Source: Bacteroidales bacterium (lineage in GTDB: Bacteria; Bacteroidota; Bacteroidia; Bacteroidales; Muribaculaceae). Taken from it: a stretch of DNA of 39,531 bases. Positions 33,557-38,152 of this stretch are shown in pieces (the stretch's first letter is position 1; each line of letters starts with the position of its first letter). The position numbers and the translations under genes are program-made. Under the pieces are notes generated by a model, which saw only the letters and a list, made by a program, of their open reading frames with translations, searched no databases and was not told the origin of the DNA. The DNA lies in assembly GCA_014800815.1 (NCBI GenBank), contig JAAVFI010000014.1, forward strand, positions 1 to 39,531, in the 5' to 3' direction.

Positions 33557-35467
33557 ATGGGAAAAATTATTGGTATTGACTTAGGAACCACCAATTCCTG
33601 CGTTGCCGTTCTCGAAGGCAACAATCCCGTCGTAATCCCTAATAGCGAAGGTCGCAACACTACACCTTCCGTAGTCGCATTTGTCGACGGCGGCGAGCGT
33701 AAAGTCGGTGACCCCGCAAAACGTCAGGCAATTACGAACCCTGAGCGCACTATCTACTCTATCAAGCGTTTCATGGGTGAAACATACGATAAAGTAAAAC
33801 ACGAAGCAGAACGTGTACCTTACAAGGTGGTACGCGGCGAAAACGATACCCCCCGTATCGATATCGACGGTCGCCAGTACACTCCTCAGGAAATCTCCGC
33901 AATGATTCTCCAGAAGATGAAGAAGACTGCCGAAGATTACCTCGGACAGGAAGTGACCGAAGCTGTCATCACCGTACCTGCATACTTCGACGACTCTCAG
34001 CGTAAGGCTACCAAGGAAGCAGGCGAAATCGCCGGCCTCACCGTACGCCGTATCGTCAACGAGCCTACTGCAGCCGCTCTTGCTTACGGTCTCGACAAAG
34101 CTAACAAAGACCAGAAGATTGCCGTATTCGACCTCGGTGGCGGTACATTCGATATCTCTATCCTCGAACTCGGCGACGGCGTGACCGAAGTTAAATCTAC
34201 CAACGGTGATACCCACCTCGGCGGTGACGACTTCGACCAGGTAATCATCGACTGGCTTGCCGACGAATTCCAGAAGCAGGAAGGCGTTGATATCCGCAAG
34301 GATCCTATGGCCCTCCAGCGTCTTAAGGAAGCAGCAGAGAAAGCAAAAATCGAACTTTCGAGCGCTACTTCTACCGAAATCAACCTCCCCTACATCATGC
34401 CTGTAAACGGTGTGCCCAAGCACCTCGTAACTACACTTACACGTGCTAAGTTCGAGCAGCTCGCCGACCACCTCATCAAGGCTACTATCAAACCTTGCGA
34501 GGCCGCTCTCCGCGATGCAGGTCTTACCGCCAAGGATATCGACGAAGTAATTCTCGTGGGTGGTTCAACCCGTATCCCCGCTATCCAGCAGGAAGTTGAG
34601 AAGTTCTTCGGCAAAGCTCCCTCCAAGGGCGTCAACCCCGACGAAGTAGTTGCCGTTGGTGCAGCAATCCAGGGTGGCGTACTTTCAGGTGACGTTAAGG
34701 ACGTGCTCCTTCTCGACGTTGTACCTCTGTCGGTAGGTATCGAAACTCTCGGTGGCGTGATGACCAAACTTATCGAGGCCAACACTACCATTCCTACCCG
34801 CAAGAGCGAAACATTCTCTACCGCAGCCGACAACCAGCCTTCAGTAGAAATCAATGTACTCCAGGGCGAACGTCCTATGGCTAAGGACGATAAGCTCCTC
34901 GGCAAGTTCCACCTCGACGGCATCGCTCCCGCTCCCCGCGGTATTCCTCAGATTGAGGTAACCTTCGAAATCAACGCCGATGGTATTCTCAACGTTACCG
35001 CCAAGGATAAGGCTACCGGCAAGGAACAGAGCATCCGTATCGAAGCATCAAGCGGTCTTACCGACGCTGAAATCAAGCGTATGAAAGACGAGGCAGCAGC
35101 TAACGCCGACGCAGACGCTCGCGAAAAGGAACGCGCCGACAAGCTCAACCAGGCCGACGCCGTAGCATTCCAGACCGAAAAGCAGCTCAGCGAATTCGGC
35201 GACAAGATTCCCGCCGACAAGCGTGCAGAAATCGAAGCCGCTGTAGCTAAGCTGAAAGAGGCTCACAAGAATGCCGACATCGCCGCTATCGACTCTACTA
35301 TCAAGGAAATCGAAACTCTCTTCGGAGCAGTTCAGCAGGATATCCTCAACGCTCAGCAGCAGGCACAGCAGAATGCAGGCGCAGGCGCAGGATATCAGAA
35401 CCCCGGCAACGGCGGTGCAAACCCCGATGACCACGTAACTGATGTAGACTTCGAGGAAGTGAAGTAA
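33557..35467 (+). CDS. dnaK: Chaperone DnaK (Hsp70)
   Basis: Cytoplasmic ATP-driven chaperone that binds exposed hydrophobic stretches and works with DnaJ and GrpE. The 636-aa protein is full length. The nucleotide-binding domain carries [13 protein letters not shown] at residues 4-16, then [26 protein letters not shown] and [14 protein letters not shown]. The substrate domain follows, and the C-terminal tail is rich in Q, A and G and ends with FEEVK, close to the usual EEVK/EEVD ending. It is alone: no dnaJ or grpE adjoins. A 20-bp inverted repeat terminates it. Confidence 0.98.
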
Positions 35468-35480
35468 TACTTCGGTCTCA

Positions 35481-35531
35481 ACAATAAAAAATGGAGTGCA
35501 GCCCGCAAGGTTGCACTCCATTTTTTATTGT
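35481..35531. terminator. 20-bp perfect inverted-repeat terminator after dnaK
   Basis: Bases 35481-35500 pair perfectly with 35512-35531 around an 11-base loop. The core is ATGGAGTGCA against TGCACTCCAT, flanked by A and T runs on both strands, so it can stop transcription from either side. Confidence 0.92.
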
Positions 35532-35533
35532 CA

Positions 35534-35585
35534 CATTTCGGTCTGACTCAAGGTTTAGTCAGACCTTTTTCGTAACTTTGGCGTT
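35534..35585 (+). promoter_or_regulatory. Promoter module copy 1 (before the small ORF and zeta-like gene)
   Basis: This 52-bp segment contains GGTCTGACT (35540-35548) pairing with AGTCAGACC (35557-35565), then TTTTT, then the -7 box TAACTTTG (35573-35580). It is about 85 percent identical to 36449-36499. The hairpin plus Ts sits directly upstream of the -7 box, so it could end transcripts arriving from the left, or act as an operator. The small ORF starts at 35608. Confidence 0.65.
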
Positions 35586-35607
35586 GGATTCTAAATGATT
35601 ATATATT

Positions 35608-35823
35608 ATGTCAGAAGCAGAGATGAACAATTATCGACTTACCTCGCTTGAGGAGCCAGGCGATGAACGCATGGCACAGATCATGCGCGAGGTCGCTGAG
35701 GATGCCCGTGAAAGCACTCGCAGGGCTGCTGAACGTGTGGCTGCCGGAATTGAGGCTGCCTCGCAAGCGGCACAGGAGAAATGGGGGGATGCCATAAATA
35801 GAATAAAGCATGGCAAATTCTGA
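35608..35823 (+). CDS. Small helical protein, putative antitoxin partner of the zeta-like kinase
   Basis: A 71-aa protein predicted to be mostly helix: YRLTSLEEPGDERMAQIMREV, then an Ala-, Arg- and Glu-rich amphipathic stretch ending DAINRIKHGKF. I recognise no named family, though small proteins of this kind often precede COG4185-type kinases in Bacteroides relatives. It overlaps the next gene by 14 bp, so translation is coupled. Its place before and tied to a zeta-like kinase makes it the likely antitoxin; that is inference from context. Confidence 0.6.
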   Translation: MSEAEMNNYRLTSLEEPGDERMAQIMREVAEDARESTRRAAERVAAGIEAASQAAQEKWGDAINRIKHGKF

Positions 35824-36415
35824 ACATCGCCCCGTGCTGATTGTGATTGCCGGGCCCAACGGGTCCGGGAAAACTTCTGTGACCTCTAAAATTCTACATC
35901 ACGAGTGGCTCGAAGATTCGGAATATATCAATCCCGACAATGTGGCACGTGATGTCTTCGGAGACTGGAACGATCGTGAGGCAGTCCTAAAAGCTGCCAA
36001 CTATTGTAACGACTGGCGAGAAAAATGCCTTGGAGAGCGAAAAAGCCATATATTTGAGACTGTAATGTCGGCAGGAGATAAAGTGGACTATATAATGCGG
36101 GCAAAAATGGCAGGATTCTTTATTCGATTGTTTTTTGTTTCAACCACATCTCCTACGATAAATGCTAAGCGCGTTGCAAACCGGGTGCTTAATGGCGGTC
36201 ACGATGTACCAATCCCCAAGATTATTTCTCGCTACGACAAGTCTATTGCCAATTGTCAACTTATCGCTCAAATCGTCGACCGTCTCTACGTATACGATAA
36301 CTCTATAGAAGATGCGGATGCACGGATTTTATTCCGTATGAGCAATGGCGAAGTGGTAAAATCTTATACTGACGATATGCCGGCATGGGCTAAAATCATT
36401 CTGCCTAAGAAATAA
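35810..36415 (+). CDS. Zeta-toxin-like P-loop kinase (COG4185-type)
   Basis: A 201-aa P-loop protein. Walker A is GPNGSGKT at residues 15-22. Then come YINPDNVARDVFG, where the aspartate lies at the place of the zeta-toxin substrate base, FETVMSAGDKVDYI, and RVANRVLNGGHDVPIPKIISRYDKSIANC, a lid-like arginine-rich segment shared by COG4185 proteins. Zeta toxins phosphorylate UDP-N-acetylglucosamine and so block wall synthesis; COG4185 members are shorter and mostly untested, so the substrate is open. The small gene upstream overlaps it. The DNA is visibly more A+T-rich than dnaK. Confidence 0.78.
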   Translation: MANSEHRPVLIVIAGPNGSGKTSVTSKILHHEWLEDSEYINPDNVARDVFGDWNDREAVLKAANYCNDWREKCLGERKSHIFETVMSAGDKVDYIMRAKMAGFFIRLFFVSTTSPTINAKRVANRVLNGGHDVPIPKIISRYDKSIANCQLIAQIVDRLYVYDNSIEDADARILFRMSNGEVVKSYTDDMPAWAKIILPKK

Positions 36416-36448
36416 TAAGTAAGGTAAAAGGATCATTTTTCAATGTAT

Positions 36449-36499
36449 CATTTCGGCATAATTCAAGGTTTAGTCATACCTTTTTCGTAACTTTGCGTT
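36449..36499 (+). promoter_or_regulatory. Promoter module copy 2 (before the AAA ATPase gene)
   Basis: Nearly the same segment as 35534-35585: CATTTCGG, six different bases, then TCAAGGTTTAGTCA, one change, and ACCTTTTTCGTAACTTTG. The -7 box TAACTTTG is at 36488-36495, 26 bp before the start codon. The left arm of the hairpin has changed, so the pairing seen in copy 1 is broken here, while the right part is kept. Confidence 0.65.
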
Positions 36500-36521
36500 A
36501 TAATCAGAAATTCTGCACTAA

Positions 36522-37562
36522 ATGTTTGACAATCTGAAAATAGAAGGCTACCGTGGAATAGCGAAAACCGAATTGCTACAATTCGGGCGCATCAATCTTT
36601 TCTTCGGCAAGAATAATTGTGGCAAGTCGTCGATACTCGAAGCATTATTTTTGTTGACCGGACCTGCAAATCCGGCTTTGCCTATTTTGATGAACCAAAT
36701 TCGTGGTATTTCGAAACACACAGAGCAGACCATGGCGTTGGAATTTCACCAACCCACTCCTAGAAACCGCATATTTATTCAGTCTGAAGGCAGTGAAGCC
36801 CGAGAATTGACTATTCAGCTTGTCAAGCGTGAAAATCCTAATATCAACCTTAAAGATATTGTCCCTGGAGAGACCTCGTCTGTAACGTATTCTTATGGTT
36901 TTTCCACAACTTTCAGAAGTAAGGGTGATGATAGGGAATACACCTCGGAAATCCTCATAGATCCTGAAAACGATACCCAGGGGTCTCAAAATATTGCTGC
37001 AGACTACAAAGAGCACATCGTGGCACGTTTTTTATCTTCAAGACTTAGCTTGAACATCGACTCCTCAGACTACGGACAAATCGTTCAAAATAAGGATGAA
37101 GAAAAAATATTCGATCTTATGCGGATTATCGAGCCGCGTCTGATTGATATTCAACTTGTCGGCAATGAATTCCTGGTGAATTTAGGAGGAGAGACACGCT
37201 TGCCTATTAATGTTATGGGTGACGGCTTCCTTAAAATTTTCAATTTGATTCTTGATATCCATTACAGCAGAAACGGTATTCTTATTGTCGACGAACTCGA
37301 CAATGGAATACATTATTCCGTTATGCCCCTGCTTTGGAAGGCTATTGATGAGGCATGTACACGACTGAATGTTCAACTTTTCGCGTCAACGCACAGTCTT
37401 GATTTAATCAAAGGACTTGTGGCTGCATTTAAGGACGACAGTGAGCACGACAGTATAGCTGCATATAAACTCATTCGCAGGCCCAACGATGAGATTGCTT
37501 CGGTGAGATATACAATTGGAGAACTTTCCTACAGTGTGAATCAAAATATCGAAATGAGATGA
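36522..37562 (+). CDS. AAA ATPase of the OLD/AbiLi/AriA type (candidate defence ATPase)
   Basis: A 346-aa ATPase of the ABC-like AAA_15/AAA_21 group. It begins MFDNLKIEGYRGI, the usual opening, with Walker A GKNNCGKSS at 29-37. Walker B is ILIVDELD at 253-260, with Glu258 as the catalytic base, and the H-loop STH ends at His291. The segment MGDGFLKIFNLIL before Walker B fits the signature-helix place. No nuclease domain is fused, unlike full OLD proteins; a TOPRIM-like protein comes from the overlapping next gene instead. Such split pairs include PARIS (AriA-AriB) and AbiL. Whether it defends against phage is inference. Confidence 0.82.
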   Translation: MFDNLKIEGYRGIAKTELLQFGRINLFFGKNNCGKSSILEALFLLTGPANPALPILMNQIRGISKHTEQTMALEFHQPTPRNRIFIQSEGSEARELTIQLVKRENPNINLKDIVPGETSSVTYSYGFSTTFRSKGDDREYTSEILIDPENDTQGSQNIAADYKEHIVARFLSSRLSLNIDSSDYGQIVQNKDEEKIFDLMRIIEPRLIDIQLVGNEFLVNLGGETRLPINVMGDGFLKIFNLILDIHYSRNGILIVDELDNGIHYSVMPLLWKAIDEACTRLNVQLFASTHSLDLIKGLVAAFKDDSEHDSIAAYKLIRRPNDEIASVRYTIGELSYSVNQNIEMR

Positions 37563-38152
37563 TAGCCATATTGTTAGAGACAGGAAAGGAATCCACGCCG
37601 GAATATAATTTTATATCGACGTTGCTGCGACATCTTGGCATAGCATCGGAAAAATATCAAATTATCACTGTTGGCGGCAAAGATAATCTACCCAACGCTT
37701 CAAATAAAATGCGTGACATTGAATTGGAAGGCGGGAAGAATATCATAATATTTGATGCCGATTCTGCAAATAATGGAGGAGGCTTCTCAAAACGCCTTTC
37801 GGAAATCAACGCTACTCTCGCTTCCAAAGATGTGCATGCCGAGATTTTCCTTTTCCCGAACAACCACGATGACGGAGACTTTGAAACAATGCTTGACAGA
37901 ATAGCAAATCGCTCTTCACACAAACTGTTTTTCGATTGTTTCAACGACTTTGAAAGTTGTGTGGCGCAACAATATATTGCTCCAAATCTTAAAGGGAAGC
38001 TGCATACCTATGTATCGTCGCAGACATGGCTTAATAAAAAGCAACGTGACAATATCGGAAAAGGTGAGTGGCTGTTCGATAAGGAACAATTATGGGATCT
38101 TAACTCACCTGAATTGCAGTCTCTTAAAGATTTTCTGCTCCAAAATATTTAA
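37559..38152 (+). CDS. TOPRIM-like protein paired with the AAA ATPase (DUF3226-like)
   Basis: A 197-aa protein translated through a 4-bp overlap (ATGA) with the ATPase. The N-terminus AILLETGKESTPEYNF looks like the TOPRIM first strand with its glutamate (Glu7), and NIIIFDADSANNGGGF (61-76) gives the D-x-D pair (Asp66, Asp68) and glycine-rich turn. FLFPNNHDDGDFETML (97-112) resembles DUF3226-like proteins. So a metal-dependent nuclease or related RNA-acting effector is plausible, as with AriB and AbiLii. The sequence does not match DUF4435 in any way I can see, so this would be a different effector from the known PARIS one. Family assignment rests on motifs only. Confidence 0.65.
   Translation: MIAILLETGKESTPEYNFISTLLRHLGIASEKYQIITVGGKDNLPNASNKMRDIELEGGKNIIIFDADSANNGGGFSKRLSEINATLASKDVHAEIFLFPNNHDDGDFETMLDRIANRSSHKLFFDCFNDFESCVAQQYIAPNLKGKLHTYVSSQTWLNKKQRDNIGKGEWLFDKEQLWDLNSPELQSLKDFLLQNI

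Follow-up and report, generated by a model that had tools for sequence, protein, structure and literature searches.

An AbiLi-type ATPase and a DUF3226 protein form a candidate split OLD-family anti-phage module in a Muribaculaceae genome

The window, a stretch of 39,531 nucleotides from a Bacteroidales bacterium of the Muribaculaceae (contig JAAVFI010000014.1, positions 1 to 39,531), carries two overlapping genes for an ATPase and a small DUF3226 protein, the effector. We regard it as probable that this pair is an anti-phage module of two genes, a split OLD-family system of the AbiL/PDC-M38 type, presumably acting by abortive infection. The computed support comes from the pairing of the genes, their co-divergence, the predicted fold, the conserved residues, the defence genes beside relatives and a patchy distribution. 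The window genome has a size of 2.77 Mb in 79 contigs, the pair being located on G000:C14. The two genes of the pair are:

36522..37562, + strand: ATPase of 346 amino acids (aa), presumed sensor/regulator of the AbiLi / PDC-M38A type, with ATG start and a conserved E-x-R end
37559..38152, + strand: DUF3226 effector of 197 aa, predicted to be a stand-alone Toprim nuclease of OLD type, with ATG start and the residues E7, E15, D66, D68, E109 and K145

The ATPase and the DUF3226 effector

Both open reading frames (ORFs) are open, and the 4-bp overlap reported in a preliminary description of this DNA was recovered as ATGA. That description let the stretch begin at 36449, whereas the first start codon past an in-frame stop, that of the ATPase, is at 36522. 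The ATPase was assigned to AAA_21/AAA_15 of Pfam. Walker A (G29-S37, GKNNCGKSS), Walker B (253-260, ILIVDELD) and H291 are located where they had been placed before, and G29, N31, K35, D257, E258 and H291 were each present in 77 of 77 sequences of an alignment from which 11 of 87 sequences were left out for shortening. Family-model scans found no nuclease domain in the ATPase, as had been described. Two PADLOC models covered residues 1-346, AbiLi (PDLC02336; 181 bits, 8.4e-54, model positions 1-340 of 340) and PDC-M38A (176 bits, 3.5e-52); neither protein of the pair scored above the NCBIfam cut-offs. The C-terminal tail is conserved: 66 of the 77 ATPases end exactly in [ED]-x-R, with E344 in 74 and R346 in 75. 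A version of 730-750 aa with about 385 extra N-terminal residues was seen in viral contigs (L149, L153-L156, L161, L163-L165), the next gene usually coding for about 290 aa. These ATPases were set aside; PADLOC has a 715-position PDC-M38A model, and the extension was without Pfam domain in the two sequences scanned.

The DUF3226 family was matched by the effector from residue 11 to 195 (model positions 7-205 of 208; 43.9 bits, cut-off 27), nearly the whole protein, where only a short DUF3226-like tail had been proposed. The PDC-M38B model of PADLOC gave 33 bits (1.1e-8, best stretch 96-193). The AlphaFold model (pLDDT 97) resembles the Toprim and helical region of OLD nucleases, in line with the Toprim-like fold surmised earlier. 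Foldseek alone gave no match for the effector under an E-value of 0.001; the assignment to OLD was made because of structural realignment, profile and residues together. AriB was not among the structural matches listed for the effector, which is no evidence against kinship. Among the closest known proteins is PH0156 (2p62) of Pyrococcus horikoshii, archaeal and uncharacterised.

Conservation was read from 83 effector relatives (82 were kept of 89, sequences outside 175-260 aa and duplicates being dropped). E7, D66, E109 and K145 were each found in 82-83 of the 83 (E7 in 82, D66 in 83), while the position of D68 was occupied by 64 D and 13 E (77 D/E) and that of E15 by D/E in 76; Glu7 and the D-x-D at 66-68, noticed before, thus proved conserved. 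By alignment and conservation, E7, E15, D66, D68, E109 and K145 align with E400, E404, D455, D457, E508 and K562 of Class 2 OLD. The effector would have counterparts for six of the seven active-site residues of Class 2; the equivalent of T506 is not matched, with D107 in the window effector and M in 46 and T in 10 of the 83. Fold and residues predict a stand-alone OLD-type Toprim nuclease.

Pairing, distribution and neighbours of the relatives

Pairing was examined by scanning one genome per species with a profile built from 13 ATPases. The best 80 ATPase loci span, among others, Bacteroidota, Cyanobacteria, Planctomycetota, Chloroflexota, Nitrospirota, several Proteobacteria, a spirochaete and archaea. 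Directly downstream of the ATPase, 73 of these 80 genome loci have a DUF3226-profile ORF, with a gap of -16 to +5 bp in 66 of the 73; in three of the seven others the contig ends no more than about 0.5 kb from the ATPase. As this gene order recurs across phyla, the pair is not due to chance. In the reverse direction, an ATPase is carried by 25 of 27 DUF3226-found loci from 395 genomes of the phylum, and in the order scan a DUF3226-profile ORF adjoins the ATPase in 26 of the 29 loci first fetched. On viral contigs the ORF directly followed the ATPase in 16 of 32 cases. The identity matrices of the two proteins correlated with r 0.788 over 73 pairs, a value to which shared descent contributes, while the highest of 2000 permutations reached 0.097.

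The distribution of the pair is patchy. In a set of 61 genomes of relatives the effector was present in two, the window genome and G021. DUF3226 was detected in at least 16 of the 395 phylum genomes and at least 29 of 295 order genomes; these tallies are lower bounds, since the PF11536 scans missed the window's own gene. The effector gene of G021, the nearest relative and of the same genus, is at a different site with its frame split in two (L060:11032-11627); judged by its sequence, this copy is broken or misassembled. Such patchiness speaks against a housekeeping or DNA-repair role of an OLD-like pair, as in the archaeal Cran1 (cell cycle), which we hold to be very improbable; a stable core context was looked for in the survey and did not emerge. 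In three close Bacteroidales relatives the pair is directly followed by a third gene, coding for about 306 aa (L066:11680-12600, L067:11676-12596, L068:6703-7617). It was rejected as a core part, being absent from the window pair.

Neighbours from known defence systems, anticipated in the preliminary description, were found beside relatives. Twenty pairs from 17 genomes, chosen for long contigs from the phylum- and order-scan loci, were compared by their six nearest genes and six genes at least 22 kb away on the same contig (at least 40 kb in 14 of 20). Genes of more than 1300 aa were left out of these and of the adjacent sets, and near and far genes were called mechanically; at least one near gene, L302:8597-9403, is a probable artefact that overlaps the real effector. 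Among the 120 near genes, 68 PADLOC families were matched at E ≤ 1e-20, including HmaB, HmaC, type I restriction endonuclease (REase) and specificity, PDC-S01, PDC-S58 and Cas13-ApeA, against four families in the 120 far genes, namely three RtcR models and TPR, each matched by a single gene. These are counts of families and not of genes, as one gene may match many families; ten near genes checked singly comprised three with matches (HmaB, HmaC, REase_I) and seven without. In locus L302, HmaB, ATPase, DUF3226 and HmaC lie in this order on the same strand, with about 1 kb before HmaC, and in L315 ATPase, DUF3226 and REase_I are separated by 2 and 12 bp. The 124 genes adjoining pairs in named genomes, a set without matched control from which 9 of 133 genes were left out for size, matched 110 PADLOC families, including HmaB and HmaC (two genes each), DpdF, HEC-01A/B and methyltransferases. 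The commonest match there was mad3 (8 of 124). MADS was rejected as a partner: related neighbours cluster in groups of at most seven, and the five members read from the group of seven appeared by eye to be ABC-transporter ATPases; the mad3-matching neighbours are probably this group.

The pair was also cargo of a 4.7-kb ColRNAI-type Escherichia coli plasmid and of an Acinetobacter plasmid, and on a Plesiomonas plasmid it follows phage tail genes. A search of plasmids with the effector gave no match at E 1e-3, nor did one of phage records with the ATPase at E 1e-8. At E 1e-5, ATPase relatives were present on 150 plasmid records, of which Klebsiella accounted for 134; the single Klebsiella record opened listed the ATPase and not the partner. 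Carriage on the E. coli and Acinetobacter plasmids would suit a plasmid- or genome-stabilising toxin-antitoxin module as well, with the Toprim protein as toxin, the ATPase as antitoxin and no specific phage role. Two AAA:TOPRIM_OLD pairs (D44, D60) are described as validated toxin-antitoxin systems in E. coli, and the accessible part of that source tells of a phage screen for another AAA pair only (AarT:AAA), with no hits (PMC10440598). However, relatives inside the Hma operon or next to a type I restriction gene fit defence better, although the two roles are not exclusive.

Relation to known systems and possible mode of action

Both window genes match, and adjoin as, genes A and B of PDC-M38, a putative candidate of PADLOC-DB 2.0. 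Its models match 77 of 77 ATPases (A) and 77 of 83 effectors (B); with 33 bits the window effector is a divergent member. PDCs are presented as mostly unvalidated candidates obtained by guilt-by-embedding (PMC12988326). No open-licence PubMed Central paper was found with the term DUF3226 or PDC-M38, a name elsewhere being possible, and none joining AbiL with Bacteroides and Toprim.

To AbiL, the abortive infection system of Lactococcus, the window ATPase corresponds end to end through AbiLi, whereas the effector had no AbiLii match at E ≤ 1. AbiLii, characterised as RloB-like in one account (PMC10440598), matched 13 of the 83 effector relatives at 1e-3; a Pfam scan of the window effector found no RloB match. 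PARIS (AriA/AriB, OLD class 4) shares the split into ABC ATPase and Toprim protein, and the rule quoted for it asks for an AAA_15/AAA_21 ATPase adjoined by a DUF4435 protein scoring over 27 bits (PMC9122126). The ATPase agrees with this rule, but the effector has no DUF4435 match at E ≤ 1; DUF4435 was weak in 4 of the 83 relatives (best 0.0015), and the family profile aligned effector E7 with AriB E26 without significance (E 0.34-0.37). Of the split OLD/PARIS-like pair proposed at first, the split OLD-like ATPase/Toprim arrangement therefore stands, and the assignment to PARIS does not. Among 45 DUF4435 or RloB loci an ATPase-profile match was obtained in 31, with at most 61 bits, while independent DUF3226-paired ATPases of 300-410 aa reached 166-354 bits, a comparison favouring the latter because the profile was built from DUF3226 partners. 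The idea of a third kind of effector held in so far as the pair differs from the sampled DUF4435 and RloB pairs; it is not unlisted, given PDC-M38A/B, the AbiLi match and the AbiLii matches among relatives.

The pair has the features of the OLD family, an ABC ATPase with conserved Walker A/B and H-loop and a predicted Toprim, in two proteins as in class 4. The Toprim and helical region is common to OLD class 2 and GajA of Gabija, where, however, a single fused protein is followed by a gene for a UvrD-like helicase. No such GajB helicase was found downstream of the window pair, where yjbR and AraC genes are located, and no HNH nuclease PtuB of Septu, the ATPase partner being DUF3226. Judged by its genes, the window pair belongs to PDC-M38, corresponds by half to AbiL and falls outside PARIS, Gabija and Septu. 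It is a widespread, already catalogued candidate from a family for which no published experiment was found. Somewhat tentatively, DUF3226 pairs may be a split-OLD class of their own beside class 4: a separate ATPase lineage whose conserved E-x-R tail latches a free-standing Class-2-like nuclease, and which spreads through bacteria and archaea by insertion into Hma/restriction operons, plasmids and prophages.

In a split OLD-family module for defence the ATPase would assemble as an oligomer, bind ATP and keep the small Toprim protein inactive. By analogy it may be a sensor restraining the nuclease: AriA holds AriB until a phage trigger frees it, and AriB then cuts tRNA, as outlined in one report (PMC12409363). 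On sensing a phage signal, the ATPase would free or activate the Toprim protein, which may cut nucleic acid with two metal ions, E7, D66 and D68 holding metal A, E15 and E109 metal B, and K145 contacting the phosphate. This cutting would stop growth of the infected cell. That the substrate is host RNA or tRNA, as for AriB, has about an even chance; DNA, as for OLD/GajA, is a slightly weaker candidate. Cutting of tRNA would make the Toprim tRNase mode of PARIS more general, whereas cutting of DNA would mean two chemistries among split systems.

Experiments with AbiL bear on this reading. AbiLii of Fusobacterium nucleatum is stated to inhibit growth of E. coli, while its AbiLi failed to neutralise AbiLii and AbiLi and AbiLii of Lactococcus caused no growth inhibition (PMC3985639). 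The latter two results weigh against an anti-phage module; they slightly lowered our confidence in it and slightly raised that in a plain toxin-antitoxin system, although an AbiLi without antitoxicity is a difficulty for that alternative too, which we consider unlikely. With a predicted fold, a proposed catalytic set and a partner with conserved tail, an unnamed database candidate becomes testable, and PDC-M38, AbiL and OLD nucleases, now filed apart, are linked.

The site downstream of dnaK

The pair is located 3' of dnaK and beside a Zeta module, with the following features around it:

33557-35467, + strand: dnaK, named by eye
35608..35823, + strand: 71-aa ORF, presumed antitoxin, overlapping the Zeta gene
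35810..36415, + strand: Zeta-toxin-like kinase of 201 aa, Pfam PF06414, judged a separate module
36416..36521, + strand: A+T-rich leader with TAACTTTG, GC 0.30, likely promoter of the pair
36434..36495, + strand: 62-nt repeat copy, by sequence comparison 85% identical to 35519-35580
3' of the effector gene, + strand: yjbR, then an AraC regulator gene, by Pfam

With a GC content of 0.41 for the ATPase gene and 0.40 for the effector gene against 0.53 for the window, the A+T-rich patch described at first was confirmed; the genes from Zeta through the effector have 0.40-0.45. The Bacteroidetes -7 box has the consensus TAnnTTTG. The TAACTTTG in the leader presumably fits this box, and the leader is likely the promoter of the ATPase/effector pair.

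In the stretch of up to 1.5 kb read 3' of dnaK, the pair was present in none of 29 other genomes of the genus and a Zeta gene in one. This site is variable, because no protein cluster in the flank (loci L222-L251; window 35467-35600) covers more than 3 of 30 genomes. By eye, the flank genes coded for a Zeta toxin, a RhuM-like protein, an ATPase and helix-turn-helix/recombinase-like proteins. The direct repeat 35519-35580 / 36434-36495 (62 nt, 85% identical) comprises a dnaK terminator-like stem and a TAACTTTG box, its first copy being the dnaK-terminator/orf71-leader stretch. No third copy was detected in this genome at E ≤ 0.001, and one relative (G726) had a 27-bp match. It looks as if Zeta unit and pair had been stacked by a duplication of the site.

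The neighbouring toxin-antitoxin candidate of the preliminary description is indeed a Zeta-toxin-like gene (PF06414, 36.7 bits, cut-off 22.3) overlapping the 71-aa ORF, but it has little bearing on the pair. A composite system of both would agree with their adjacency on the same strand, with the repeat preceding both units, and with L061, a Prevotella metagenome-assembled genome, in which a Zeta gene, by eye preceded by a small ORF, is downstream of the pair. However, Zeta homologues, up to 93% identical, occur in 28 of 49 genus genomes, and of 19 further Zeta loci in the genus, for which up to 1.5 kb alongside was read, 13 had the 71-aa partner and none the ATPase. Zeta module and pair therefore look separate. 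Among 112 other ATPase loci, which vary in length, just one had a Zeta match at E 1e-4, and we give a composite system hardly any weight. Elsewhere in the window genome, DUF4435 was matched twice, in ORFs of about 530 aa, and RloB once (G000:C25, G000:C79, G000:C68).
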